Assembly: GCF_015694465.1 (NCBI RefSeq)
Contig: NZ_JADQDO010000001.1
Location: 124,001 to 188,000, forward strand
DNA: 64,000 bases
Source of the DNA: Microvirga alba
GTDB lineage: Bacteria > Pseudomonadota > Alphaproteobacteria > Rhizobiales > Beijerinckiaceae
Direction: 5' to 3'
The notes beneath the pieces were generated by a model that had not been told where the DNA came from, ran no database searches, and saw only the letters and a program-made list of their open reading frames with translations. Position 1 is the stretch's first letter, and each line of letters opens with the position of its first letter. Shown piece by piece: positions 7,191 to 45,644 of the stretch. The position numbers and the translations under genes were made by a program.

Positions 7191-8525
7191 ATGCCCCAAA
7201 CGTTCGACCTGATCCTCAAGGGCGGCATTGTCGTCAATCACGATGGACGCGCTGAGCGCGATGTGGGCGTGAGGGACGGCACCATCGTCGCCATCGGCGA
7301 CCTCTCTCTCGCCTCGGCCGGACGCGAGGTCGATTGCCGGGGCCTGCACATCCTGCCGGGCGTCATCGACACGCAGGTGCATTTTCGCGAGCCCGGCCTC
7401 GATCACAAGGAAGACCTGGAAACCGGGTCCCGCGCCGCTGTCATGGGCGGTGTGACGACCGTGTTCGAGATGCCCAACACCGATCCGCAGACCACGAGCG
7501 CGGAGGCGCTCGCCGACAAGATCAAACGCGGGCATCATCGGATGCATTGCGACTTCGCGTTCTGGGTCGGCGGCACGCATGACAATCTGAACGACATTCC
7601 CGATCTCGAACGCCTGCCGGGCGCTGCCGGCATCAAGGTGTTCATGGGCTCGTCGACCGGCTCTCTGCTGGTCGAGGATGATGAAGGCATCGCCAATATC
7701 CTGCGCCGCACCCGTCGTCGCGCTGCCTTCCATTCGGAGGATGAGGCGATGCTGCGGGAGCGCAAGAATTTGCGCATCGAGGGCGATCCGCTTTCGCATC
7801 CGGTCTGGCGCTCGGCGGAAGTCGCGCTTGCCTGCACGCAGCGCCTCGTGCGCATTGCGAAAGAAACGGGAGCGCGCATTCACGTGCTGCATGTGAGCAC
7901 CGCCGAGGAGATGGCGCTCCTCAAAAACTACAAGGATCTCGCCTCCGTCGAAGTCACGCCGCACCATCTCACCCTCGTCGCGCCCGACGCTTACGAGCGG
8001 CTTGGCACCTACGCGCAGATGAATCCGCCCGTGCGCGACGAATTCCACCGGCACGCACTGTGGGAAGGGCTCGATGAAGGCATCGCCGACATCCTCGGAT
8101 CGGATCACGCGCCCCATACCCGCGAGGAGAAGGATCGGACCTATCCGAACACGCCGTCCGGCATGACCGGCGTGCAAACGCTCGTGCCGATCATGCTCGA
8201 CCACGTGAATGCGAGCCGCCTGACGTTGGAGCGCTTCGTGGACCTGACGAGCGCCGGCCCGAAGCGACTGTTCGGCATCGCGAAGAAAGGCCGCATCGCC
8301 GCGGGCTACGACGCCGATTTCACGGTGGTCGATCTCAAGCGCCGCGAGACGATCACGAATGATTGGATCGCTTCCAAATGCGGCTGGACGCCCTATGACG
8401 GTGTCACCGTCACCGGCTGGCCCGTCGGCACGATCGTGCGCGGCAACGTGGTGATGTGGGAGGGCGCACTCGACGCGCCTTCACGCGGCGAAGCGGTGCG
8501 GTTTGAGGAAACCCTGAAGGGATAG
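7191..8525 (+). CDS. pyrC: Dihydroorotase (class I, amidohydrolase superfamily)
   Basis: Interconverts carbamoyl-aspartate and dihydroorotate in pyrimidine synthesis. The 444-residue protein has the amidohydrolase metal motif in PGVIDTQVHFREPG, MGGVTTVFEMPNT, the GIKVFMGSSTGSLL segment with the presumed carbamylated Lys, and the late metal Asp in ILGSDHAPHT. The class I length and the REPG motif favour dihydroorotase. Related hydantoinase or allantoinase activity cannot be excluded, because several paralogues of this family exist in Hyphomicrobiales. It is divergent from ygfZ and stands alone. Confidence 0.85.
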   Translation: MPQTFDLILKGGIVVNHDGRAERDVGVRDGTIVAIGDLSLASAGREVDCRGLHILPGVIDTQVHFREPGLDHKEDLETGSRAAVMGGVTTVFEMPNTDPQTTSAEALADKIKRGHHRMHCDFAFWVGGTHDNLNDIPDLERLPGAAGIKVFMGSSTGSLLVEDDEGIANILRRTRRRAAFHSEDEAMLRERKNLRIEGDPLSHPVWRSAEVALACTQRLVRIAKETGARIHVLHVSTAEEMALLKNYKDLASVEVTPHHLTLVAPDAYERLGTYAQMNPPVRDEFHRHALWEGLDEGIADILGSDHAPHTREEKDRTYPNTPSGMTGVQTLVPIMLDHVNASRLTLERFVDLTSAGPKRLFGIAKKGRIAAGYDADFTVVDLKRRETITNDWIASKCGWTPYDGVTVTGWPVGTIVRGNVVMWEGALDAPSRGEAVRFEETLKG

Positions 8526-8532
8526 AAACAAC

Positions 8533-9294
8533 TCACGTCATGAGATGACGCTCGAAGAACGCGATCACTTGTTCGTAGTGTTCGTTTTCGGCAGCGCTTC
8601 CCGGAATGTGATCTTCGCCCTCGTAGTAATGCACCTCGGGCGCGTGGCCGTGGTGTTTGAGCCGCTTCTCGAGACGGCGCGTCATGTCGACGGACCAGAC
8701 GCGGTCCGCCGTTCCATGGCTGAGGAAGATCGGGCCGTCGAAGCGCTCGATCTCGATGGGAGTCGTCGGCAGCAGGCCCTCCGACGAACCGCGCCATGTC
8801 CACGCGCGCTTCCCCGGGTCCCAGGCCTGCCAGCCGGGATCGCCCGTGTCGCGCCAGGCGGCGGCGTTCGAGGCTCCGCAGACGACGTCGGGCGGGCTGT
8901 GCGCCGCCAGCGCGTCCGGCAATCCGCCGACGCCGTCTCGCGCCATGAGCGAGGCCAGCAACAGCGCATGTTCGGCGCCGCGTGATACACCGTAAATTCC
9001 GATCTTCGGGCCCACGCAGGCGAGGTCCCGAAGCGCATTCAGCGCGCTCACGGTCTGATCGAGCGGGGCGTCGGTGATGTTGCCCGCGTTCCAGAAATTC
9101 CCGCCCTTCGAGTACGGGAAGGGGAAGGCGAGAAAGCCATGGGCGGCGAGGATGGCCGCATTCCGATGGCTCCATCCGGACCACGCTCCCTCGGACCCGT
9201 GCAGGACCATGATCGCGGGAAAAGGCCCGTCGCCGGGTGGCCCGTAAGTGGTTCCCCACGGCGGCAGCAGGCGACGAACGATCTTGAGCGGCAT
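8533..9294 (-). CDS. Alpha/beta hydrolase (dienelactone hydrolase/acyl-CoA thioesterase C-terminal-like)
   Basis: A 253-residue alpha/beta hydrolase. The nucleophile elbow is G-V-S-R-G in IYGVSRGAEHALL, the acid is probably the Asp in SHGTADRVWS, and the His is in EGEDHIPGS. An oxyanion-hole region, MVLHGSEGAWSG, lies near the N-terminus. The start MPLKIV at 9294 fits the fold better than a start at 9321. It converges on pyrC with only 7 bp between stops. The substrate is unknown; ester or thioester hydrolysis is likely. Confidence 0.8.
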   Translation of the reverse strand: MPLKIVRRLLPPWGTTYGPPGDGPFPAIMVLHGSEGAWSGWSHRNAAILAAHGFLAFPFPYSKGGNFWNAGNITDAPLDQTVSALNALRDLACVGPKIGIYGVSRGAEHALLLASLMARDGVGGLPDALAAHSPPDVVCGASNAAAWRDTGDPGWQAWDPGKRAWTWRGSSEGLLPTTPIEIERFDGPIFLSHGTADRVWSVDMTRRLEKRLKHHGHAPEVHYYEGEDHIPGSAAENEHYEQVIAFFERHLMT

Positions 9295-33794: not shown

Positions 33795-34592
33795 TCAGTC
33801 GGTTGCGACGATACATTTCGTTCCAGCTTCGATGAGACATCTCCGTAACGCTTCCGGTGGCTCTGCATCCGTGACGAGAATGTCGAAGGAGGACAGGGGG
33901 GCAAGGCGACCCACTGCTGTCCTGTCGAATTTTGATGAATCGGCGACCGCGATCGCGCTTCTCGAATGGGCGAGGCTAGCCTGTCTGACAGCGATCTTTT
34001 GCAGGTCGAAATCCATCGGCGCGCCATCGGTGTCAAAGCCCGCAAAACTCATAATCGTGAAGTCGACTTTGAAAAGGCCGATCTGATCGATAGTAACGCT
34101 TCCGACAAGTGATCCGTTGGGGCCGCGCAGCGCGCCGCCCGTGACGAAGACCTCGATGCGCGGATGATCCGTGAACAGCATCGCGACGGCGGCGCTGCAG
34201 GTGAAAACTTGCAAGCCGTTCTTCACCAGGAGCGCGCGGGCGACGGCCTCGACTGTCGTGCCCACGTCGAGGAATACGGATGCCCCATCTGGAATTCGGT
34301 GGGCTACGGCACGTCCAATTCGTTCTTTGCCATTGATGGCTATGACCTGCTTTTGCGCATAGCCGAGGCGCACCGAGTTGTCCCGGAGGCCAGCGCCGCC
34401 GTGGAAGCGTTGCAGCAGGTGGGCCTTTTCAAGTTGGATGATATCTCGACGTACGGTTTGGTTCGACACACCGAACTGGCGCGCGAGCGCTTCGATGGTG
34501 GCGAAGCCTTGCTCTTGGACGGCTTTCAGCACAAGCTGCTGCCTTGCACTGAGGTCGTCGCCCTGGTGTCGCAATGCGGCTTCGTGTTTCAT
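33795..34592 (-). CDS. DeoR-family transcriptional regulator
   Basis: A 265-residue repressor. The N-terminal HTH is FATIEALARQFGVSNQTVRRDIIQLEKAHLLQRFHGGAG, a standard DeoR signature; the C-terminal sensor has DVGTTVEAVARALL and VTGGALRGPNGSLVG for sugar-phosphate binding. It lies upstream of phnD on the same strand, 108 bp away, and probably controls that operon in response to a phosphorylated sugar-like ligand. This agrees with a phosphorylated substrate for the importer. Confidence 0.92.
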   Translation of the reverse strand: MKHEAALRHQGDDLSARQQLVLKAVQEQGFATIEALARQFGVSNQTVRRDIIQLEKAHLLQRFHGGAGLRDNSVRLGYAQKQVIAINGKERIGRAVAHRIPDGASVFLDVGTTVEAVARALLVKNGLQVFTCSAAVAMLFTDHPRIEVFVTGGALRGPNGSLVGSVTIDQIGLFKVDFTIMSFAGFDTDGAPMDFDLQKIAVRQASLAHSRSAIAVADSSKFDRTAVGRLAPLSSFDILVTDAEPPEALRRCLIEAGTKCIVATD

Positions 34593-35307: not shown

Positions 35308-36282
35308 TCATGCCTCATCGAGGAGCGCGGTTGCCGTCTCGCTGTCAGTAATCAGGACCTGAACCGAGACCGCCTTTAAAGCCGCCCGAATTGCCTCGAC
35401 TTTCTTGTTGCCACCGGCGGCGAGGACGACATTCGGGATTCTGCTGACCGCATCAAGGCCGATTGCCATGACCCGGCGATTGATGTCGTGGTCAACGAGG
35501 CGTCCATCGAAAGTTACAAAGAAGCACAGAATATTAGCGACGGCACCCTGGTCCTTTAACGGGTTGATGAGATCGGACGGGACAATGCCATGTCTGAAAA
35601 TGGTAGCCTCCGGCGAAACGTCGCCGACCGTGAGGAGGGCGATATCCGCCGCTTCCGCCCGAGCCCGGGCAAATCGCAGGGTCGGCTGCGACCACAGGCG
35701 GTCCCGTAGTTCGGGGTCATCGACGATGACCGGCGCCGTGATCTGGTAGCTGTCGGCGCCAAGGGCCTCCGCCACTTTTACTGCGACGATCGAGGGATTA
35801 ATCCATTGCGAGTGCGGTAAGCTGCCAACGAGGGCCGCGACTGTCGCGCCTTTAAGTTGGCGCCGGGGCAGGAAGGCCAAGCTGGCATAGAGAGTCGCGC
35901 CGCCGCCGATGGCGAGCGTTGCGCCATCCTTCATTTGCTCCCCCACGTAAGACGCAACGGCGTGGCCGATCGCCTTTTCAAGGCTTCCTTCGTCGCTGGG
36001 TGTCGGTACAACGACCGCCGCGGCAAGTCCCCAGTGCTTTTCGAGCTCTCGCTCCAGTCGGATTTGGCTTGCCGTCGGAGTGTTGATAGTCGTCGTGACA
36101 ATGCCATCGGATATGCAGGCGGCGAGCGTCCGCATCACCTTGATCCGCGTTACGCCAAGCTTTTCCGCAATCTGCTCCTGCGTGAAGCCTTCTACGAAAT
36201 AGAGCCACGCGGTCTTTACAGCCAAATCCGATGAAACCAGCGGCGGTCCCAGTTCTTCGTTCTTTGTCTTAGGTGATGGCAT
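35308..36282 (-). CDS. SorC-family sugar-responsive transcriptional regulator (1)
   Basis: A 324-residue regulator. The N-terminal HTH is FVEGFTQEQIAEKLGVTRIKVMRTLAACISDGIV; the C-terminal SorC sugar-binding domain contains LAIGGGATLYASLAFL, VAALVGSL, DIALLTVGDVSPEATIFRHG and VVLAAGGNKKVEAIRAAL. ATG 36282 is preferred to the TTG at 36300. It is divergent from the importer operon starting at 36489, and a perfect 12+12 bp palindrome lies between. Ligands of this family are phosphorylated sugars. Probably controls the 36.5-42.2 kb operon. Confidence 0.92.
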   Translation of the reverse strand: MPSPKTKNEELGPPLVSSDLAVKTAWLYFVEGFTQEQIAEKLGVTRIKVMRTLAACISDGIVTTTINTPTASQIRLERELEKHWGLAAAVVVPTPSDEGSLEKAIGHAVASYVGEQMKDGATLAIGGGATLYASLAFLPRRQLKGATVAALVGSLPHSQWINPSIVAVKVAEALGADSYQITAPVIVDDPELRDRLWSQPTLRFARARAEAADIALLTVGDVSPEATIFRHGIVPSDLINPLKDQGAVANILCFFVTFDGRLVDHDINRRVMAIGLDAVSRIPNVVLAAGGNKKVEAIRAALKAVSVQVLITDSETATALLDEA

Positions 36283-36346
36283 CCCTTTGCATCCCTTCAA
36301 AGACCGCTTGCCGTTCGGTCCTGTCGCTAGCCTTCCGCAGCGTCCT

Positions 36347-36378
36347 GTTCATTTGTTCTTGACAGTGAACAAATGAAC
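36347..36378. promoter_or_regulatory. Perfect 12-bp inverted repeat operator with embedded -35 box
   Basis: GTTCATTTGTTC (36347-36358) and GAACAAATGAAC (36367-36378) are exact reverse complements around TTGACAGT. The TTGACA (36359-36364) is a good -35 box for the rightward operon, so a regulator bound here would block RNA polymerase. The site lies between the SorC gene and its divergent target operon. The half TGAACAAA recurs at 50908-50915, upstream of the second SorC-linked importer. Confidence 0.75.
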
Positions 36379-36454
36379 AATAACGTTCTTCCGCGCTGTC
36401 ATCAAACGTGACGGTGGAGCCAATAAGAATTTGCGAATCGATATTTTCAAATGG

Positions 36455-36488: not shown

Positions 36489-37475
36489 ATGATCCATATT
36501 TTGAAGGGCGTGCGGCTCGCATCGTTGGCCCTTACTGCAAGCTTGGTCGTCTCTGCCGCACAAGCGGAAACGCTGATGCTCTACACCTCCCAGCCGGAGG
36601 CAGATGCTTCAAAGACCATCGAGGAATTTCGCAAGGTCAACCCGGGTATCGATGTTCAGGTGTACCGGTCCGGCACCAGCGATATCCTCAGCAAACTCGC
36701 CGCGGAGTTCGCGGCAGGCGCTCCACAAGCCGACGTTCTGTTCATCGCCGATGCAGTGAGCATGGAGCTCCTGAAAAAAGACAAGCGTCTTGCAGCCTAC
36801 AAAGAAGCGAATATCGCAGGCTTTCCTGCCGAGAGCTATGACGCCGACAAGACTTATTTCGGCAGCAAGCTCATCACCACCGGCATCGCCTACAATACCG
36901 GTGCCAGTAAGAAGCCGAAGCACTGGTCGGATCTGACAGACGCTGCCTATAAGGGTATGCTCGTCATGCCGAGCCCGCTCTACTCGGGGGCCGCTGCGTA
37001 TCAGCTGTCGGGTTTTGCCGTGAAACCGGAGCTGGGGTGGGGCTATTTCGAAAAGCTGAAAGCCAACGACACCATCGCGGTCCGTGGTAACGGCGCGGTG
37101 CTGAAGTCTGTGGCGAGTGGTGAACAGCCTTACGGTATCCTCGTCGACTTCATGGCTCTCAATGCCAAGGCCAAAGGCTCCCCGATCGAGTTCGTGTTCC
37201 CCGAGGAGGGCGTTCCCGCTGTCACCGAGCCGGTCGCTATCATGTCCACGGCGAAGAACCCGGCCGCCGCGAAGAAGTTCGTGGACTTCATCCTCTCGGA
37301 TGCAGGCCAGAAGCTGGCTCTTTCACAGGGCTATCTGCCCGCAAAGGAAAGCGCGGGACGTCCGTCCTGGCTGCCTGAAAACGCCAAGATCAAGATCATG
37401 CCGATTGACATCAAGGCAGTCCTGGAGCGGACCGAGGACGACAAGAAAAAGTTCTCGAATCTGTTCGGCGGCTAA
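36489..37475 (+). CDS. ABC transporter substrate-binding protein (AfuA/FbpA-like) (module B)
   Basis: Periplasmic binding protein, 328 residues, with a signal peptide ending SAAQAE. The N-terminal domain starts TLMLYTSQPEADASKTIEEF and continues ADVLFIADAVSMELL and LITTGIAYNTG, typical of family-1 extracellular proteins first named for iron and now known to include sugar-phosphate (AfuA) and aminoethylphosphonate binders. The Tyr ligands for ferric iron near the C-terminus are not evident. Strong AGGAGG Shine-Dalgarno. First gene of a five-gene coupled operon ending in surE, so a phosphorylated organic ligand is likely. Confidence 0.88.
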   Translation: MIHILKGVRLASLALTASLVVSAAQAETLMLYTSQPEADASKTIEEFRKVNPGIDVQVYRSGTSDILSKLAAEFAAGAPQADVLFIADAVSMELLKKDKRLAAYKEANIAGFPAESYDADKTYFGSKLITTGIAYNTGASKKPKHWSDLTDAAYKGMLVMPSPLYSGAAAYQLSGFAVKPELGWGYFEKLKANDTIAVRGNGAVLKSVASGEQPYGILVDFMALNAKAKGSPIEFVFPEEGVPAVTEPVAIMSTAKNPAAAKKFVDFILSDAGQKLALSQGYLPAKESAGRPSWLPENAKIKIMPIDIKAVLERTEDDKKKFSNLFGG

Positions 37476-37487
37476 GGAGCCTTTTTC

Positions 37488-39236
37488 ATGGCCGGATCGA
37501 TCGGTGGCGTGCGGAACTCGTCCGACCTCGTCATACCTGCTTCAATAAAAAGAGGCTTTCCATCGGAATGGGTGTTGACGGGACTCGTGGTCGCGATCGT
37601 CGTCATCCTGTCGATCCTTCCCATGCTTCGTCTGGTGCAAGAGATCATTGCACCAGGCGGTCGTCTGTCGATTGCGGCTGTCGAAGCCGGGTTGTCGAAT
37701 CCCGCCACGTGGACCGCAACCTGGCACTCTCTTGTGGTCGGTTTCGGAGGCACCGCTTTGGCGGTGCTCTTCGGAACCGCCGTGCCCATCCTCATTTCAC
37801 TGACTGACGTTCGCGGGCGCAGCGCCTTCGTGCTCTGCTTCGTGACGCCCTTGATGATCGCGCCTCAGGTGACGGCCCTCGCGTGGCTGCAGCTGTTCGG
37901 CCCGGCGAGCCCTCTGCTGAAGTTGCTCGGCATCGCTCCTCCTTTGGGAAGCCGCAATCCTCTGTATTCGGCGCAGGGCATCATTCTGCTGCTGGGCGTG
38001 CAGTACGGGCCGCTGGTGTTCCTGATGGTTCGCGCAGGTCTGCGCAAGTTGCCGCGCGAGCTGGTGGAGGCAGGTTTGGCTGGGGGCGCCAGCCGCTGGA
38101 CCGTGCTCAGAACAATCGTGCTGCCTTTGATGACGCCTTCTATCATTGGCGCATCCGCACTGGTGTTTGTTTCCTGCGTCGGCAACTTCGGCATTCCGGC
38201 TTTCCTCGGAATTCCGGCCAACTATCTCGTTCTGCCGACGCTGATTTATCAGCGCCTTGCCGGGGCCGGGCCCTCAGCGCTGGCGGAAGTGGCGTTTCTT
38301 TCGGTTCTGATCGGCGTTATCGCTATGGTCGGCATCGTCGCGCAAGATATCATCAGCCGCCGGCGCGATTACCGGATCGCGACCACATCGTTGCCAGTCG
38401 AGCCCTTCGAGCTTGGACGCTATCGCGTGCTCGTCGAGGCGATCATGTGGCTGATCATTTGCGCCATTCTGGTGTTGCCGATGCTGGGGTTGTTCCTGAC
38501 ATCCCTTGTGCCGGGTTACGGTATTCCGCTGTCGTTCAAGACCGTAACCCTGTCCAACTATTCCTTCGTGTTGTTCGATCACGCGGCTGCCAAGAGCGCC
38601 TTCTTTAACAGCTCGGTTCTTTCCGTCGCCGCTGCGGTCTTCGCCGTTCTGGTGGCGGTGCCGCTCGGCTATTTTATCGCTTGGCGTACGTCTTGGTGGA
38701 GCAAGGTGCTGAACCTGACCGTGGAGCTGCCGTACGCGCTCCCAGGTGTGGTACTGGCGATTGCAGCCTTGCTGATGTTCCTCAAGCCGATCCCGCTGAT
38801 CGATCTTCGGATCTACAACACGGTTTGGATCATCCTCTACGCCTACCTCGCGCGCTTCATGGTGCTGGCATTGCGTCCGACGGTGAGTGGATTCCATCAG
38901 ATCGACCGCTCTCTGGAGGAGGCCGCGCAGGTTGCTGGCGCCGGGTTCGTGATGCGGCTGCGCACGATCATCTTTCCAATGGTAGCACCGGTGGCCGTTG
39001 CTGGCGGGCTTCTGATCTTCATGACGGCGTTCAGTGAGCTCACGGTGTCCGCATTGCTGTGGGCTTCCGGCTCGGAGACCATCGGCGTCGTGATCTTCTC
39101 CTTCGAGCAGGGCGGCGATTCGAGCTATGCGGCGGCGATCTCGACGATGACCGTGGCACTTACGTTGCTGCTGATGCTTGCTTCTAATTTCCTTGCACGT
39201 CACTTGCCGAACGGAGTTCTCCCATGGCGGGACTAA
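37488..39236 (+). CDS. Fused double-domain ABC transporter permease (module B)
   Basis: A 582-residue inner-membrane protein with about 12 hydrophobic segments, that is, two permease domains in one chain. The first EAA loop is EAGLAGGASRWTVLRTIVLPLMTPSI, the second EEAAQVAGAGFVMRLRTIIFPMVAPVA. This FbpB/AfuB layout goes with the binding protein just upstream. The Shine-Dalgarno AAGGAG precedes ATG 37488. Its end overlaps the ATPase start by 13 bases. Confidence 0.92.
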   Translation: MAGSIGGVRNSSDLVIPASIKRGFPSEWVLTGLVVAIVVILSILPMLRLVQEIIAPGGRLSIAAVEAGLSNPATWTATWHSLVVGFGGTALAVLFGTAVPILISLTDVRGRSAFVLCFVTPLMIAPQVTALAWLQLFGPASPLLKLLGIAPPLGSRNPLYSAQGIILLLGVQYGPLVFLMVRAGLRKLPRELVEAGLAGGASRWTVLRTIVLPLMTPSIIGASALVFVSCVGNFGIPAFLGIPANYLVLPTLIYQRLAGAGPSALAEVAFLSVLIGVIAMVGIVAQDIISRRRDYRIATTSLPVEPFELGRYRVLVEAIMWLIICAILVLPMLGLFLTSLVPGYGIPLSFKTVTLSNYSFVLFDHAAAKSAFFNSSVLSVAAAVFAVLVAVPLGYFIAWRTSWWSKVLNLTVELPYALPGVVLAIAALLMFLKPIPLIDLRIYNTVWIILYAYLARFMVLALRPTVSGFHQIDRSLEEAAQVAGAGFVMRLRTIIFPMVAPVAVAGGLLIFMTAFSELTVSALLWASGSETIGVVIFSFEQGGDSSYAAAISTMTVALTLLLMLASNFLARHLPNGVLPWRD

Positions 39237-40306
39237 CCATTGATCGGGTCAGCAAACGCTTCGGCGATTATGAGGCACTCTCCAACGTTTCCATCAATGT
39301 TGCCGATGGAGAGTTCCTGGCGGTTCTGGGGCCCTCGGGTTGCGGTAAGACAACCCTACTTCGAATGGTGGCCGGCTTCGAGAAGGTCACCGACGGACGC
39401 ATCATCATCGGCGGTGAGACGATGTCGACACCGGAGCGTAACCTCCCCCCGGAGAAGCGCCGGGTTGGCATCGTATTCCAGAACTATGCCCTCTGGCCGC
39501 ATATGACTGTCGCGGAAAACGTAGGATACAGCTTAAAGGTCGCGAAGGTCTCTCGCGCGGAGCGCGACCGCCGCGTTGCCGAAGCGCTTTCACTCGTCAA
39601 TCTCACCGGCTATGGCGACCGGCGTCCGGCTAATCTCTCCGGTGGCCAGCGCCAGCGCGTGGCCTTGGCTCGTTGTCTCGTCTCCGCGCCGTCGCTCGTC
39701 CTCTTCGACGAGCCGCTCGCCAACCTAGACGTCCACCTGCGTGCGGCGATGGAAGATGAGTTCGCTGATTTCCATAAACGAACCGGTACCACCATAGTCT
39801 ACATCACGCATGATCAGGCGGAAGCCATGGCCCTTGCGGATCGGATTGCCGTGATGGACGAGGGCCGCCTCGCGCAGCTTGCTCCTCCACGCGAACTCTA
39901 TCGCGAGCCGGCAAACGAGATGGTCGCATCCTTCATTTCGCAAGGCATCATCCTGCCTGCCGACGTCCTGACGGCTGCGGAGGCCGGGCATTGTCGCGTC
40001 CGCGTGCTGGGCCACGAAGTGCTGGTGCGTTGCCGCCCGGATGAGAGTCCGCGCGCCGCTGCGAAGCTGTGTTGCCGCTCGCCGGAACTCGAGGCCGTGG
40101 GACCAAGTGAGGATGGCATTCCGGTCGCCATCAAGCGGGTTGTTTATCAGGGCGGCCGTGCCCGAGTCGAACTGTCGCCCGTCGAGCGGCCGGATCTCAA
40201 TTTGCATCTTGAGCAGGCCGATCCTGTGACCCTCGTAGCGGGTGTCGAAGCACGTGTGCGCATTCGGACCGGCTGGCTGATCCCAGAGGCGAGGAACGCC
40301 CCATGA
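39224..40306 (+). CDS. ABC transporter ATP-binding protein (module B)
   Basis: A 360-residue ATPase. Walker A GPSGCGKT at residues 36-43, Q-loop IVFQNYALWPHM near 83-94, signature LSGGQ at 138-142, Walker B LVLFDEP at 158-164. The C-terminal part (from about 240) is a TOBE-like domain as in FbpC/PotA. The start ATG lies inside the permease 3' end and its stop overlaps the MBL gene by four bases (ATGA). Confidence 0.94.
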   Translation: MAGLTIDRVSKRFGDYEALSNVSINVADGEFLAVLGPSGCGKTTLLRMVAGFEKVTDGRIIIGGETMSTPERNLPPEKRRVGIVFQNYALWPHMTVAENVGYSLKVAKVSRAERDRRVAEALSLVNLTGYGDRRPANLSGGQRQRVALARCLVSAPSLVLFDEPLANLDVHLRAAMEDEFADFHKRTGTTIVYITHDQAEAMALADRIAVMDEGRLAQLAPPRELYREPANEMVASFISQGIILPADVLTAAEAGHCRVRVLGHEVLVRCRPDESPRAAAKLCCRSPELEAVGPSEDGIPVAIKRVVYQGGRARVELSPVERPDLNLHLEQADPVTLVAGVEARVRIRTGWLIPEARNAP

Positions 40307-41472
40307 TGCAGGTCGATCTTCACGGCGGTTTCGGTGAGAAGGGGCGCACAAGCGTCGCGCTCCGCTCAGCGAGGAGCCATATTCTGCTCGATGTCGGGAT
40401 CAAGGTGGGGGCTTCCGGACAAGAATATTACCCGGTCATCGGTCGAGAGGTTGGGACCATCGAGGCGCTTTTCCTGTCCCATGCTCACGAGGACCACGTT
40501 GGTGCCCTGTCCTGGCTGCTGGCCGAAGGCTATTGCGGCCCGATCTTCATGACCGAGGAGACCCGCGAAGAAGCCCCAGCAACCCTCGCGCATTATGCAG
40601 ATCCAGCGCAGCTGGAACTGTTTCCCTTTCCCAGCGACCGGGTTGAACTGTTCAAGCCCGGTGACACGCTGACCGTTGGCGATTTGACCATTCGCACCGG
40701 ACGTTCGGGGCATGTGGTCGGCGGTGTATGGTTTGCTGTCGGCAATGGGGAAGAGACCATCGTCTATTCCGCAGACATCTTGCCCGACAGCAAAGTGTTT
40801 GTGATGGATCCGCTGCCGTCCTGCGACCTGCTCATCCTCGATGCCTCCTACGGTGCAGATCCGGTTTCCGGCGCTGCAAGGGCCGATGAGATCGCCGCCT
40901 GGGTTACCGAGCATCCGAAGGGATGTCTGCTGCCGACGCCATTATTCGGTCGGTCCTTGGAGTTGCTGGCGGTGATGCCGAGGCGCTTCGCAATTCATGC
41001 CAGCATGCGCCAGGCTTTGATGATCCAAATTGCAGCGAGAGAGGCCCTGTATCCCAAGGCTGTCGAGAGGTTGAAGCAGCAACTCGCTGTAGCTATCGAC
41101 TGGCACGACGGCGACCCATTGCCTGACTGCCCGTTGCTCGCCGACGACGGCATGGGAACAGCCGGTCCTTCTGCAACGCTGATCCCGCATGCCGATGCGA
41201 GCGGCTATCCGGTGCTGTTGACCGGGCATCTTCCGGCCTCTTCCCCCGGCGACCTGCTCTATCGCAGCGGACGCGCATCCTGGATCCGCATGCCGACGCA
41301 TCCGACCCTGTCGGGCAACCTCGATGTCTGGCAAAAGGCCGGCGAGCCTCAGACCCTCGGTCACTCTTGCTCACCGTTCATGCTCGAAGAGCTCGGCCAT
41401 CACATTACTTCGCTACGCACGGATGTCCGCACGGGCCAGAGTCTCACTTTGCTTGAAGGAGCGATCTCATGA
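40303..41472 (+). CDS. MBL-fold/beta-CASP-like metallo-hydrolase (module B)
   Basis: A 389-residue protein. Metal motif SHAHEDHVGALSWLL supplies HxHxDH, the third-motif His is in RSGHVVGGVWF and Asp in VYSADILPDS. It begins VDLHGGFGEKGRTSVALRSARSHILLDVG. The region after residue 200 (LLPTPLFGRSLELLAVM ... LTGHLPASSPGDLLY ... PTHPTLSGN) resembles the beta-CASP insertion of RNase J/CPSF-type nucleases and related hydrolases. Being overlapped by both the ABC ATPase and surE, it probably acts on the imported compound, for example as a phosphodiesterase; this role is inferred. Confidence 0.78.
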   Translation: MMQVDLHGGFGEKGRTSVALRSARSHILLDVGIKVGASGQEYYPVIGREVGTIEALFLSHAHEDHVGALSWLLAEGYCGPIFMTEETREEAPATLAHYADPAQLELFPFPSDRVELFKPGDTLTVGDLTIRTGRSGHVVGGVWFAVGNGEETIVYSADILPDSKVFVMDPLPSCDLLILDASYGADPVSGAARADEIAAWVTEHPKGCLLPTPLFGRSLELLAVMPRRFAIHASMRQALMIQIAAREALYPKAVERLKQQLAVAIDWHDGDPLPDCPLLADDGMGTAGPSATLIPHADASGYPVLLTGHLPASSPGDLLYRSGRASWIRMPTHPTLSGNLDVWQKAGEPQTLGHSCSPFMLEELGHHITSLRTDVRTGQSLTLLEGAIS

Positions 41473-42236
41473 GAATCCTGGTCTGCAACGATGACGGCGT
41501 GGAAGCGCCCGGTATCGCGTTTCTCGGTGAGGTCGCCCGCACGCTTTCGGATGACGTGTGGGTCGTCGCTCCCGATGGGAAGCGCACTGCGGGCAGTTCA
41601 TCGCTGACGATTGCACGTCCATTGACGATGACGCGCCTGTCGGAGCGCCGATATTCGTGCTCCGGCACGCCCGCCGATTGCGTCGTGACGGCCATGACCT
41701 GGCTCTTCAACGGGGACAAGCGCCCGGACCTTGTGCTGTCGGGCGTGAACGACGGTCGCAACGTGGCAGAGGATTTGGCGTACTCGGGCACACTCGGCAT
41801 CGCCCGGGAGGCGACCTTTTGGGGCATTCCCGCGATCGGGTTCTCGCGGGTGAAGAATCCCAGGATCACCGATCAGGACGTACCGTGGATGGCCGACCTG
41901 ATCCGGGGGCTCTGGCAGAACCGCGACGTCTGGGCGACTGAGGGGCACTTTCTGAGCATCAATCTGCCGGAGGATCTGCCGGCGCCGATCCGGCAGCCGA
42001 AGATCGGCCGCGATAAGATCGGGAATTCGGCGGAGGTGATCTCCTCAGATGGCGACACGGTCGTCCTCGTGGTTCCGCGTGGGCGGCCCCACAGCACGAC
42101 GCCGGGAGACGAGAACGAAGCCATCGACGGCGGACATGTCACCATCAATCGCTTGAGCTGGTTCGGTGAAGCACCGCTTAAGCCCGATGCTCTCTTAGCG
42201 ATTTCCCCACCGTCGAAGGTGCAAGAGGCGGTTTAG
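41469..42236 (+). CDS. surE: 5'/3'-nucleotidase SurE
   Basis: Survival-protein-E phosphatase that releases phosphate from nucleoside 5'- and 3'-monophosphates and short polyphosphate. The metal-binding start ILVCNDDGVEAPGI (Asp pair), the Ser/Asn cluster in PDGKRTAGSSSLT and the SGVNDGRNVAEDLAYSGTLGIAREA block are complete in 255 residues. SurE in alphaproteobacteria usually sits by pcm; here it is instead the last gene of an ABC import operon, so this may be an extra catabolic copy. It starts within the MBL stop (ATGA). Confidence 0.93.
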   Translation: MRILVCNDDGVEAPGIAFLGEVARTLSDDVWVVAPDGKRTAGSSSLTIARPLTMTRLSERRYSCSGTPADCVVTAMTWLFNGDKRPDLVLSGVNDGRNVAEDLAYSGTLGIAREATFWGIPAIGFSRVKNPRITDQDVPWMADLIRGLWQNRDVWATEGHFLSINLPEDLPAPIRQPKIGRDKIGNSAEVISSDGDTVVLVVPRGRPHSTTPGDENEAIDGGHVTINRLSWFGEAPLKPDALLAISPPSKVQEAV

Positions 42237-42262
42237 GCCACGATGGAACCAGTTCCGGGACA

Positions 42263-42288
42263 GCCGTCATACCCAAAATGACGGCTGT
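42263..42288 (+). terminator. Hairpin after surE
   Basis: GCCGTCAT and ATGACGGC pair around ACCCAAA, 27 bases after the surE stop. There is no T-run, so it is terminator-like at best; a second short GCCC/GGGC hairpin with TTTTT loop follows near 42316-42328. Confidence 0.45.
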
Positions 42289-42433
42289 GGCGGGTTTAAC
42301 GCGCCGGACGGGCATGCCCTTTTTGGGCGTGTGAATGAAATCTTGTTGTCATTTACCTAAAAGGACTTGCATTCGGAGTGCCAGCTGCACTTTAACAGTC
42401 AACTTAGTCGGCAAATCAAATCAGACACACGCA

Positions 42434-44128
42434 ATGGACGCAACCCGGACGCTCATCCAAATGATTGGCAGTGTCGCCCTTCTCTTATGGGGGGTGCGCA
42501 TGGTGCGCACGGGCGTGACCCAGGCGCTTGGAGCCGAATTGCGGAGGCTGGTTGCCTTATCGTCGCGAAACCGCATCGCGGCTTTCTTTAGCGGCCTGAT
42601 CGCAACGACGCTGTTGCAGTCGAGCACTGCCATGGCGCTCGTCATCGGTTCTTTTGCTGGGCAAGGCATCATTGGGCTGTCGGCTGCGCTGGCCGTGATG
42701 TTGGGCGCCGACGTTGGTTCCACGCTCGCGGCACAACTCCTGGCCTTCGACATCAAATGGCTCTGGGCGGTTCTCGTCGCGGGCGGATACGTTCTTTACA
42801 GCAGCCGCGAAAGCGCGGCGGGCGCCGCACGTGCGATCATCGGCCTTGGTTTTCTTCTCTTGGCTCTGCAGGAACTAAGCGTGGCCGCCGTTACGCTGCG
42901 CGAGGCACCCACCTTGCGCGTCGTCCTCGGGGCTGTAGGCGCAGAGCCACTCATTGCGCTCGGCATCGCGGCGCTTCTGACCTGGGCGGCCCATTCCAGT
43001 CTTGCCATCGTTCTTTTCGTGATGTCGCTAGCGGGAAGCGGTGTTATTCCAGTGTCGGTGGCGCTCACCCTTGTGCTCGGGGCCAATATCGGCGGCGCCT
43101 TTGCTCCCTGGGTAGCGCTTGCTGGTTCGCCGCCTGCTGCACGTCGTGTGCCTCTGGGCAACCTCCTCATGCGCGGGGTTGTCGGTCTCGCCGTCGTGCC
43201 TTTCGTCGACTATGCTGCCGAATGGACGTCCTCCTTCGTTGAGGACGCGGCGCGAAGCGTGGTCCTTTTCCACACGGCCTTCAATCTCGGCGTTGCACTT
43301 CTTGGCCTTCCTTTCGTCGGCGTTCTTGCCAATCTTCTGCAGCGGTGGGGCGACGAGCCCGCGGGCGCGGGCGACGAAGGCAAACCGCGCCATTTGGAGA
43401 GGAGCGTGCTCGACACGCCGTCCGAGGCACTTGCATGCGCATTGCGCGAGTCGTTGCGCATGGGAGACCTGGTCGCCACCATGCTGCACGATGTGATCGC
43501 CGCCATCGAAGGCAACGATCAGATACCGCTGAAGGATATCGAGAAGGCGGACGACACCGTCGACCGTTTACACGAAGCCATCAAGCTCTACCTCGTCGAG
43601 GCTTCGAAGGCGCCGATGACGGAAGAGGAAAGTCGTCGCCTCTTGGAGATCCTGACCTTCACGACCAATCTGGAACATATCGGCGACATCATCGATAAGA
43701 ACCTCCTGGGGCTTGCCGCCAAGAAGGTGAGACGACAACTCTCGTTCTCCGCCGAAGGGTTGGAAGACATCCGTGCCTTCCACGCGCGTGTCATCGAGAC
43801 GATGCGTCTTGCCGCCAATGTGTTCGCCACGCGCGATGTCGGCTTGGCCCGCAGGCTCTTTGCCGACAAAAGCGCCATGCGCGCGGCGGAGCGCAACGCG
43901 ACCGAGAGCCACTTCGTGCGCCTGAAGGATGGCAGGCCTGAGTCGATCGAGACCAGCTCCATCCATATCGACATCATCCGAGACCTCAAGCGCATCCACG
44001 GCCACCTTACGGCCACGGCTTACCCGCTGCTAGAAGCCCAGGGCGATCTTGCGGAGTCGCGGCTCAGGAATCAGAGCACCAAGGATCGTCGGGACGATCT
44101 TTCGTTGTCCGTGAGCGGGCGTACCTGA
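42434..44128 (+). CDS. Na+/phosphate cotransporter family protein with C-terminal PhoU-like domain
   Basis: A 564-residue membrane protein of the NptA/YjbB family. The N-terminal part has two related hydrophobic repeats containing the QSSTA motif (TLLQSSTAMALVIGSF) and a later HSSLAIVLFVMSLAG. Residues about 350-555 form a PhoU-like helical domain (LVATMLHDVIAAIE, TTNLEHIGDIIDKNLL). Such proteins move phosphate with sodium; YjbB is an exporter. The start is ATG 42434; no strong Shine-Dalgarno. Standing just after the surE operon it could handle phosphate released by SurE. Confidence 0.9.
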   Translation: MDATRTLIQMIGSVALLLWGVRMVRTGVTQALGAELRRLVALSSRNRIAAFFSGLIATTLLQSSTAMALVIGSFAGQGIIGLSAALAVMLGADVGSTLAAQLLAFDIKWLWAVLVAGGYVLYSSRESAAGAARAIIGLGFLLLALQELSVAAVTLREAPTLRVVLGAVGAEPLIALGIAALLTWAAHSSLAIVLFVMSLAGSGVIPVSVALTLVLGANIGGAFAPWVALAGSPPAARRVPLGNLLMRGVVGLAVVPFVDYAAEWTSSFVEDAARSVVLFHTAFNLGVALLGLPFVGVLANLLQRWGDEPAGAGDEGKPRHLERSVLDTPSEALACALRESLRMGDLVATMLHDVIAAIEGNDQIPLKDIEKADDTVDRLHEAIKLYLVEASKAPMTEEESRRLLEILTFTTNLEHIGDIIDKNLLGLAAKKVRRQLSFSAEGLEDIRAFHARVIETMRLAANVFATRDVGLARRLFADKSAMRAAERNATESHFVRLKDGRPESIETSSIHIDIIRDLKRIHGHLTATAYPLLEAQGDLAESRLRNQSTKDRRDDLSLSVSGRT

Positions 44129-44255: not shown

Positions 44256-45644
44256 TTATCCGAGGCCTGCGAGTTCGGCCGCAAGCCGCCCCACTGCACG
44301 CTTCTGCTCGAGCTGCGGCATGTGACCTGTCGCTGGGAACATGTGGACGGCAACCGCGCCAGGCAGGCCCGTTGCGTGACGGGCCGGGATGACCCGGTCC
44401 TCCGTGCCAAATACGACCTTTACCGGCCAGTCGAAGTGCTCAAACAGGTGGCGGATACTGAAGGCCTGGGTGCCATCCGGGAAGAGATGGGCCGCGAGCC
44501 GCTCCTGTGATCGCGTCAGATCGCCGGTGCGTGCCCGGAGGGTTGCGCTCACGAAGGATGCGCCAAGGCTGCGTTCATCGAAGGCGAGCTCACGAACCCA
44601 CGGAGCCAAGCTAGCCTCGCTCGTGGCACGCAGGATACCGGAGATGAAGGCGCCATTCATATCGGGCCCGAGCCCTGCCGGTGACAGCAGCATCAAAGAA
44701 CGGATGTCCAGTTGGGACTGGGCTGCAACCGTTGCTGCAACAGCAGCGCCGAGGGAATGACCGATGAGATGAAGGGTATCGACGCCTTCGCTGAGGAGGG
44801 TGTCCAGGACCGATGAGGCGAGATCGTCGAGCGAGTTCTCGTCGGAAAGGGGAGAGCGTCCGTGCCCGGGCAGATCGATCCCGAGGATCGGTCGATCAGC
44901 GGGCATGGAGGGAAGGGCGGGACGCCAGCTGTTCAAGTCGGAACCGAAACCATGGATCAGCACGAGCGGTGTGCCTGTTCCCTGGCGCAGCCACACACGG
45001 TGTAGAGGTCCGGATTCGCGCGGAGCGGAAGCCGCATTTTGCCTCGCGGGAACCCGGCAGGAGCGACGTGTCGCGGGAGCAGCAGGGCGCTCTTGTGTGA
45101 ATGCGCTGGAGTTCGTGGCATCGATATGCTCCAGCACATCGCTGTACTGGATGCGTCCACGAGGTCCCGATCCGCGCAGCCCGCTCAGCTCGATCCTATG
45201 CTCACGGGCGAGGCGGCGAGCCAGCGGAGTGGCGCGGGTGGCATTCGACCCAATGGCGGCAGGCACCCATGCGCTCGACGGTGCGGCGGGCGCCAAAGCC
45301 GGTGATATCTCAGCGGGGAGCGCGGCCTCGGCGGGCGCGCCAGTGGCGGTCGGAATGTCGACGGGCAGTTCGGGCGCGGCATGCACCGGGCCCTTATACG
45401 CCTCGTGTTCGCCGTAAATCATGGCAACCACGCTGCCGACCGGCACTTCGAGCCCTTCCTCGCCCGTCATGTCGCGGATGATGCCGGAGACCGGAGCCTC
45501 GATCTCCATCGCAGCCTTGTCGGTCTCGATCTCGAAGATCACCTGGCCCTTTTCGACCTTGGCGTTTTCCTTGACAAACCAGCGCGAGACTTTGCCTGCC
45601 GCCATATCCATGTCGACGCGCGGCAGGATCACTTCAGTCGGCAT
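44256..45644 (-). CDS. acoC: Acetoin dehydrogenase-type E2 (lipoyl domain + alpha/beta hydrolase)
   Basis: A 462-residue E2-like subunit. Residues 1-80 are a biotinyl/lipoyl domain with the modified Lys43 in EIETDKAAMEI, residues about 135-170 a peripheral-subunit-binding domain (PLARRLAREHRIELSGLRGSGPRGRI in pieces), and 220-462 an alpha/beta hydrolase instead of the usual acyltransferase, with Ser297 in GHSLG, Asp416 in GTEDRV and His441 in TGHMP. This is the AcoC layout. The substrate may be acetoin or another alpha-hydroxyketone or 2-oxo acid. No E3 gene adjoins. Confidence 0.88.
   Translation of the reverse strand: MPTEVILPRVDMDMAAGKVSRWFVKENAKVEKGQVIFEIETDKAAMEIEAPVSGIIRDMTGEEGLEVPVGSVVAMIYGEHEAYKGPVHAAPELPVDIPTATGAPAEAALPAEISPALAPAAPSSAWVPAAIGSNATRATPLARRLAREHRIELSGLRGSGPRGRIQYSDVLEHIDATNSSAFTQERPAAPATRRSCRVPARQNAASAPRESGPLHRVWLRQGTGTPLVLIHGFGSDLNSWRPALPSMPADRPILGIDLPGHGRSPLSDENSLDDLASSVLDTLLSEGVDTLHLIGHSLGAAVAATVAAQSQLDIRSLMLLSPAGLGPDMNGAFISGILRATSEASLAPWVRELAFDERSLGASFVSATLRARTGDLTRSQERLAAHLFPDGTQAFSIRHLFEHFDWPVKVVFGTEDRVIPARHATGLPGAVAVHMFPATGHMPQLEQKRAVGRLAAELAGLG

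Follow-up and report, generated by a model that had tools for sequence, protein, structure and literature searches.

A conserved ABC importer operon that couples a beta-CASP-type metallo-beta-lactamase protein to one of several interchangeable phosphatases

The beta-CASP fold of metallo-beta-lactamase (MBL) proteins is known for cutting RNA and DNA. Phosphate ester uptake has been described elsewhere. In the acc (agrocinopine) system of Agrobacterium, as presented in parts of PMC4526662, an ATP-binding cassette (ABC) transporter imports a sugar phosphodiester, the phosphodiesterase AccF, inside the cell, and the putative phosphatase AccG act on it, and the regulator AccR takes the phosphomonoester product as its effector. 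Sections of two further papers describe binding proteins for monoesters: AfuA binds glucose-6-phosphate and needs His205 to do so (PMC4546632), and P5PA binds pyridoxal-phosphate (PMC8427247). Here we describe an operon of Microvirga alba, located in a stretch of 64,000 nucleotides (contig NZ_JADQDO010000001.1, positions 124,001 to 188,000; hereafter the window). Positions 36489-42236 of the window form a single operon encoding a periplasmic binding protein, a fused permease, an ABC ATPase, a beta-CASP-type MBL protein, and the phosphatase SurE. Among the titles and abstract beginnings listed by searches of open-licence papers, none describes this gene combination.

The open reading frame coordinates bear out the five-gene row reported in the initial annotation of this DNA: a 12-base gap is followed by overlaps of 13, 4, and 4 bases. 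The gene order, its conservation, the swapping of phosphatases, the catalytic motifs, and a unique palindrome can all be read from the sequences. We lean towards a role in nutrient uptake: a small phosphodiester would be imported and then degraded in the cytoplasm, first by the MBL protein and next by SurE. In this scheme, the binding protein would hold the phosphate, and the ABC importer would take the molecule in. The MBL protein would then hydrolyze one ester bond of the phosphodiester, giving a phosphomonoester from which SurE would strip the remaining phosphate. A divergent SorC regulator may respond to the substrate, or to the phosphorylated product made from it, and control a single operator, and a Na/Pi-PhoU carrier, where present, may handle the freed phosphate. 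We infer the phosphodiester nature of the ligand, the diesterase activity of the MBL protein, and the second place of SurE in this order of events.

The conserved gene set around the MBL gene is well supported, and the association is confirmed as real, conserved, and unusual. A profile built from 14 MBL sequences (A1) was run against sets of genomes. In the class, 8 of 385 genomes matched; in the order, 30 of 397; and in the phylum, 29 of 398. Seventeen of the phylum matches scored 274-457 bits and 12 scored below 85 bits. The profile also matched 13 of 198 genomes in the family of G477 and 4 of 145 in the order of G661, and a single-sequence MBL search matched 11 of 150 relatives. With few genomes per survey matching, the family is scattered, not core. 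A plasmid survey gave an MBL match in 113 of 72,556 records, distant nucleases included, and 14 of these, hand-picked for variety, were viewed in context. All full-length A1 places were taken, except six of nine in genus g548 and one G363 fragment. The resulting 79 loci comprise the window, 3 further fetched loci, 14 plasmid records, and 61 genome stretches; some rows are near-copies, and the MBL proteins of L016 and L017 are identical. In a gene-neighborhood survey of the kind proposed in the initial annotation, with both strands counted, all three importer genes lie near the MBL gene in 71 loci. Three more loci have the binding protein and permease genes, one has the ATPase gene as its only importer gene, and four have none; of these four, L079 stops at a contig edge. 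In contrast, a binding protein or permease gene is found in none of seven controls, chosen from 12 weak-scoring (distant beta-CASP) loci; one of the seven has an opposite-strand ATPase match 6 kb away. The window and 12 plasmid loci served to build the neighborhood profiles, so those 13 loci are not independent. Recurrence of the neighborhood in most of the 79 related loci indicates that the gene set reflects more than chance. Runs around the MBL gene mostly contain only importer, MBL, phosphatase, and regulator genes. Identity to the window's proteins is 26-67% for the MBL protein across 13 other systems and 42-75% for the binding protein across 11. The annotated records examined mostly name the permease as an iron transporter ("iron ABC transporter permease" in many relatives) and the MBL protein as a generic hydrolase.

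Individual loci vary in setting. A set of importer, MBL, and histidine phosphatase genes (L025, 5207-10610) lies downstream of an IS5-like element on an Enterobacter hormaechei plasmid that is conjugative and is named for VIM, and an MBL match is also present on an Enterobacter cloacae plasmid. L067 encodes an MBL protein 61% identical to the window's (8015-9160), with no importer or phosphatase recognized in its 17-kb stretch. The permease, elsewhere one fused protein, occupies two genes or frames in L028 (7150-8879) and L107.

A phosphatase gene stands beside the MBL gene in 60 of the 79 loci, and these phosphatases belong to four unrelated folds: SurE (16 loci), dual-specificity phosphatase (14), histidine phosphatase (11), histidine phosphatase together with a HAD protein (17), and HAD alone (2). 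By Pfam, the histidine type is PF00300 and the HAD type is HAD_PNKP (PF25109). The dual-specificity call is weak, with PF00782 just below and PTP-SAK above cut-off in L022 and no Pfam match in L020; record annotators call this type protein phosphatase or dual specificity phosphatase. Catalytic signatures are present as CX5R in 14 of 14 dual-specificity proteins, as RHG or RHA in 28 of 28 of the histidine type, and as DxDGT in 15 of 19 HAD proteins, the remaining four being clipped at a script-chosen start. Phosphatase types are distributed in line with the MBL tree, which has 78 rows and omits L079: the label changes 11 times, versus a shuffled mean of 48.0, and none of 200 shuffles is as low. 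The 16 SurE loci and two without a phosphatase make up one starred branch. Such an exchange of folds, while importer and MBL stayed, is expected if the second enzyme strips phosphate from the MBL product. The two-step route suggested initially, MBL and then phosphatase, fits the gene set, this replacement in place, and a near-full-length match of the MBL protein to CPSF73. The remark that SurE is unusual at the end of an ABC import operon also stands; a specific link to SurE does not, because SurE is one of several interchangeable phosphatases.

The Microvirga genome contains two SurE genes, whose products are 34% identical to each other. The residues D8, D9, and N94, which we take to be the SurE metal ligands, are kept in all 16 operon-type copies, as is K38, and A41 is kept in 15. 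At place 40, the genome's other SurE has Ser, and 15 of the 16 operon-type copies have Thr. The operon SurE scores 128.8 of 135.1 against NCBIfam TIGR00087, just under the cut-off, and falls below the cut-off of each of 12 further NCBIfam SurE models listed. The other copy (L134, 4562-5344; G000:C11 near 708.6 kb) has neighbors that by eye read tatBC-serS-surE-pcm.

Profile A1 matches CPSF73 (2i7t) with E=1e-32 over model positions 12-358 of 362; the matched length is 347 model positions, versus 420 residues in CPSF73. The HxHxDH motif noted initially is HAHEDH, at residues 60-65. In the alignment, H60, H62, D64, H65, H137, D158, and D180 are kept in 79 of 79 loci, and D30 and H333 in 78, with one gap each. 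The metal ligands, whose loss would have spoken against the original proposal, are conserved. We take D180 to be the motif A acid, H333 the motif B His, and H354 the motif C His; in the beta-CASP superfamily, the last metal-ligand place belongs to motif C and is occupied by His or Val. H354 occurs in 16 of 16 SurE-type loci and in 2 of the 19 loci without a phosphatase, and elsewhere the place is Ala, Leu, Val, Met, Gly, or a gap. Judged from these alignments, the MBL protein is probably a shortened, CPSF73-like beta-CASP protein, and its SurE branch retains every motif. The profile check proposed initially upheld the likeness to CPSF73 and spoke against membership of RNase J (25.1 of 400 bits) or aCPSF1 (77.7 of 580.2 bits), and in the NCBIfam search the MBL protein attained no nuclease-family cut-off. 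The further suggestion of a nucleic-acid hydrolase acting on oligonucleotides is not supported in that form: the scores are far below cut-off, the protein is shorter than CPSF73, and the binding protein resembles binders of phosphate esters. Oligonucleotides and cyclic nucleotides are nonetheless conceivable substrates. A phosphodiesterase role is suggested by the fold family; to our knowledge, the known beta-CASP members cut phosphodiesters.

A PDB profile search with the binding protein gave 8x1a (8e-31), 4r72 (AfuA, 3e-30), and 6wce (P5PA, 2e-25), and AfuA was the top match in a single-sequence search. The deposited name of entry 8x1a is that of an iron(III)-compound-binding protein; the other ferric-named entries match less strongly than AfuA. 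In FbpA-type ferric importers, a tyrosine pair binds the iron. Residues of AfuA were mapped by eye from the profile alignment. The phosphate residues Ser37, Ser148, and Gly149 correspond to T63, S166, and G167, each present in 74 of 74 binding proteins, and the sugar-site acids Asp206 and Glu229 correspond to D or E at 220 (74 of 74) and E or D at 240 (69 of 74). Invariant in all 74, and with all phosphatase types, are YTSQ 32-35, R60, G62, T63, D88, K127, SPLYSG 162-167, GNG 200-202, and Y215. This near-invariant pocket across phosphatase types suggests one ligand class for the whole family. The protein falls outside the AfuA hexose-phosphate family, with the phosphate site partly kept and the His205 equivalent lost in 74 of 74. 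Glucose-6-phosphate was ruled out as the ligand, since AfuA's essential His is replaced and Thr150 is now Ala.

Importer copies without the MBL gene provide a comparison. A strong binding-protein match was found in 24 of 172 genomes of the order, 8 of which are known MBL genomes; the other 16, in which stretches L151, L154, and L161 stop at the permease, and six plasmid records (L139-L142, L144, L145) give 22 MBL-less copies. These copies rule out a strict one-to-one pairing of the importer with the MBL protein. The Halomonas importer L143 has both MBL and HAD. Tyr165, which adjoins the Ser-Gly aligned with the AfuA phosphate site, is present in 75 of 75 MBL-linked binding proteins and kept in 6 of the 22 MBL-less copies. 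Identity in at least 74 of the 75 MBL-linked copies defines a set of 47 columns, of which Tyr165 is the least kept; each of the others is kept in at least 11 of 22. Among the six copies that keep it, L144 adjoins a GpdQ/SpdA-like calcineurin phosphodiesterase, and L151 stops at a contig edge. Neighbors were identified for a subset of the MBL-less copies; others look unrelated. A GpdQ/SpdA-like enzyme (2dxl and 2zo9 in the PDB are presumably GpdQ) lies near 3 of the 22 (L140, L141, L144), and its best NCBIfam model is SpdA, at 245 and 155 bits, below the cut-off of 400. Beside the importer in L156 and L159, from one genus, is a DUF4147 protein that weakly matches glycerate 2-kinase; a dihydroxyacetone kinase is found beside L158, a 2-hydroxyacid dehydrogenase beside L146, and a phospholipase D-like protein near L145. 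Taken together, these neighbors lean towards glycerol- or glycerate-type phosphoesters. Within the class of small phosphodiesters, a glycerol- or three-carbon-type compound is our best substrate guess, albeit a doubtful one.

One MBL-less importer, on a Kosakonia cowanii plasmid (L142, 6932-12488), lies between metE and udp, genes that are usually chromosomal in enterics.

The SorC-family regulator and its putative operator are part of the unit and lie outside the interval annotated initially. The best NCBIfam model of the regulator is a DeoR repressor, at 183 bits, under the cut-off of 420. A SorC-family gene is nearby in 13 of 16 SurE loci (in L121 downstream, not divergent), LacI in 11 of 14 dual-specificity loci, and DeoR in 19 of 19 HAD-bearing loci; regulators match phosphatase type, and all belong to sugar-type families. 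Of the 12 SorC-type loci examined, 9 carry the palindrome form TGWTCATTTGT-N12-ACAAATGAWCA, either exactly or with a single mismatch; L018, L119, and L120 do not. A search of the whole genome with up to three mismatches returned a single site, and in 150 relatives with up to one mismatch the palindrome occurs in 4 genomes, all with the SorC-type operon. It is absent from G062, G065, and G069, which have importer and MBL and in which the SorC gene was not found. The regulator may bind this palindrome and act as a repressor. A Pho-box search with one consensus found none between regulator and operon, and gave 5 matches in the window versus 3.2 expected. The palindrome, with no Pho box found, favors substrate induction over phosphate starvation.

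Several observations weigh against phosphodiester uptake as the function of the operon. The AfuA phosphate contact Thr150 is Ala168 in 73 of 74 binding proteins, and His205 is replaced by V, I, A, or T in all 74; the AfuA-type phosphate site appears only partly kept. Ferric-binding proteins also match the binding-protein profile, from about 4e-19. Structure predictions for the MBL and binding proteins, made from four-sequence alignments, are poor, with mean pLDDT (the predictor's confidence score) of 51 and 45. Nineteen of the 79 MBL loci, including L079 at its contig edge, lack all four phosphatase kinds, and in 16 of the 24 genomes with a strong binding-protein match, none of the six genes listed to either side of it encodes an MBL protein. 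The three GpdQ-like genes are all clustered with another ABC importer, and the GpdQ profile found no match near the 16 genome copies without MBL. Finally, a set of phosphonate genes, seen in one genus, is the sole recognizable pathway adjoining an MBL-bearing operon: phnD-phnE-DUF1045-phnM-phnN lies directly upstream of importer and MBL in L109 (83-4249). L106 and L072 resemble this set by gene length, L072 also having an amidohydrolase match, and L102, of the same genus, has a DnaJ-type gene in that place. This arrangement could indicate an importer of 2-aminoethylphosphonate or another phosphonate, with the MBL protein as a PhnP-like cyclic phosphodiesterase, and PhnS2 and PhnU2 are indeed the top NCBIfam matches, with PhnT2 second best. 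However, the scores are 150 of 392.75, 156 of 593.25, and 316.8 of 457.7 bits for PhnS2, PhnU2, and PhnT2, a test for a C-P lyase link found no PhnJ match in the window's genome, and the phosphonate genes were seen in that genus only, which makes this explanation very improbable.

The MBL protein's nearest solved relatives are nucleases, which allows a different explanation, close to the initial proposal: salvage of nucleotides, in which 2',3'-cyclic nucleotides or dinucleotides would be imported, opened or cut by the MBL protein, and converted by SurE to the nucleoside. SurE belongs to a 5'/3'-nucleotidase family, the HAD partner matches a PNKP phosphatase family, and the calcineurin enzyme near MBL-less importers best fits, below cut-off, the 2',3'-cyclic nucleotide phosphodiesterase SpdA; a uridine phosphorylase gene also lies near the MBL-less Kosakonia importer, with other genes in between. 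We consider nucleotide salvage unlikely, because the binding protein has binders of sugar phosphates and of pyridoxal-phosphate among its nearest relatives, the few extra genes around the MBL gene that were identified (not all) are not nucleoside genes, and the MBL protein is shorter than the nucleases and far under their cut-offs. Alternatively, the imported compound might be a phosphomonoester (a phosphate of a sugar or of glycerate, for instance), on which the phosphatase would act directly, with the MBL protein hydrolyzing, for example, a lactone or an acyl ester. AfuA and P5PA both bind monoesters in the published accounts, as given in parts of PMC4546632 and PMC8427247. The DUF4147 protein, dihydroxyacetone kinase, and 2-hydroxyacid dehydrogenase beside MBL-less importers would also suit such a compound. 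Nevertheless, the MBL profile is specifically beta-CASP, whose known members cut phosphodiesters, and the MBL gene is retained in the 19 loci without a recognized phosphatase; monoester import seems to us quite unlikely. Uptake of a phosphodiester is the explanation we retain. Its wider form, in which a beta-CASP protein turned small-molecule phosphodiesterase anchors an undescribed proteobacterial nutrient pathway with any phosphatase at hand, and Tyr165 marks the form of ligand that needs the MBL protein, is one to which we give not quite even weight.

The features of the locus are collected in Table 1. The stretch downstream of SurE (42245-42310) folds as RNA at -30.4 kcal/mol, with z -3.2. 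In 7 of 16 SurE-type loci, SurE is followed on its own strand by a gene of the Na/Pi-PhoU family. Beyond the SorC regulator, 33795-34592 (-) encodes a DeoR/GlpR-type regulator whose best NCBIfam model is PRK10906 (195 of 331 bits). The translation of 44256-45644 (-) resembles, by eye, the fusion of a lipoyl/E2 domain with an alpha/beta hydrolase that occurs in acetoin dehydrogenase.

Table 1. Features of the operon and its flanks (window coordinates)
Feature	Coordinates	Strand	Evidence
Periplasmic binding protein, P0001	36489..37475	+	SBP_bac families above Pfam cut-off
Fused double permease, P0002	37488..39236	+	Two BPD_transp_1 stretches (Pfam)
ABC ATPase, P0003	39224..40306	+	ABC_tran, 126 bits (Pfam)
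Beta-CASP-type MBL, P0004, proposed phosphodiesterase	40303..41472	+	Lactamase_B (Pfam, above cut-off)
SurE paralogue, P0005, proposed phosphomonoesterase	41469..42236	+	PF01975, 156 bits (cut-off 22.1)
SorC-family regulator (sugar-binding domain PF04198), divergent	35308..36300	-	Pfam, 189 bits; start TTG at 36300 tentative
Putative regulator operator	36346..36379	.	Perfect 13-base inverted repeat, 8-base spacer with TTGACA (36359-36364)
Hairpin 3' of SurE, possible transcript end, no T run seen	42260..42288	+	
Na/Pi cotransporter with PhoU domain, perhaps separate transcript	42335..44128	+	PF02690 and PF01895

If the proposal is correct, these loci represent an overlooked organophosphate uptake family in soil, marine, and enteric bacteria, plasmid-borne copies included, and the beta-CASP fold acquires a metabolic role. 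The gene set is small and modular, such that one binding screen could reveal the substrate.

The MBL protein shares with the nucleases CPSF73 and TTHA0252 the MBL core, D180, and H333, and in the SurE branch also H354; it differs in being shorter, in belonging to an importer operon, and in having the motif C His in only 18 of 79 loci. With the SurE nucleotidases, the window's SurE has in common the family and Asp8, Asp9, and Asn94, whereas it differs as a second copy with Thr at 40. The AfuA and P5PA proteins are among the nearest solved binding proteins, and part of the phosphate site is retained; AfuABC, according to parts of its description, was likewise first predicted to be an iron carrier. 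Unlike AfuA, the window's binding protein has lost His205, has Ala for Thr150 and an invariant Asp88 for Thr60, and carries an invariant Lys127. The window's system further departs from AfuABC and P5PA in its fused permease and in its dedicated MBL and phosphatase genes. The acc system uses a binding protein of the peptide type, AccA, and its AccF is not known to be an MBL protein. The likeness to acc, drawn by function from parts of its published description and not by sequence, lies in import, diesterase, phosphatase, and a regulator that senses the product. We do not place the operon as a member of acc; by analogy, it may work like the acc system with different parts.

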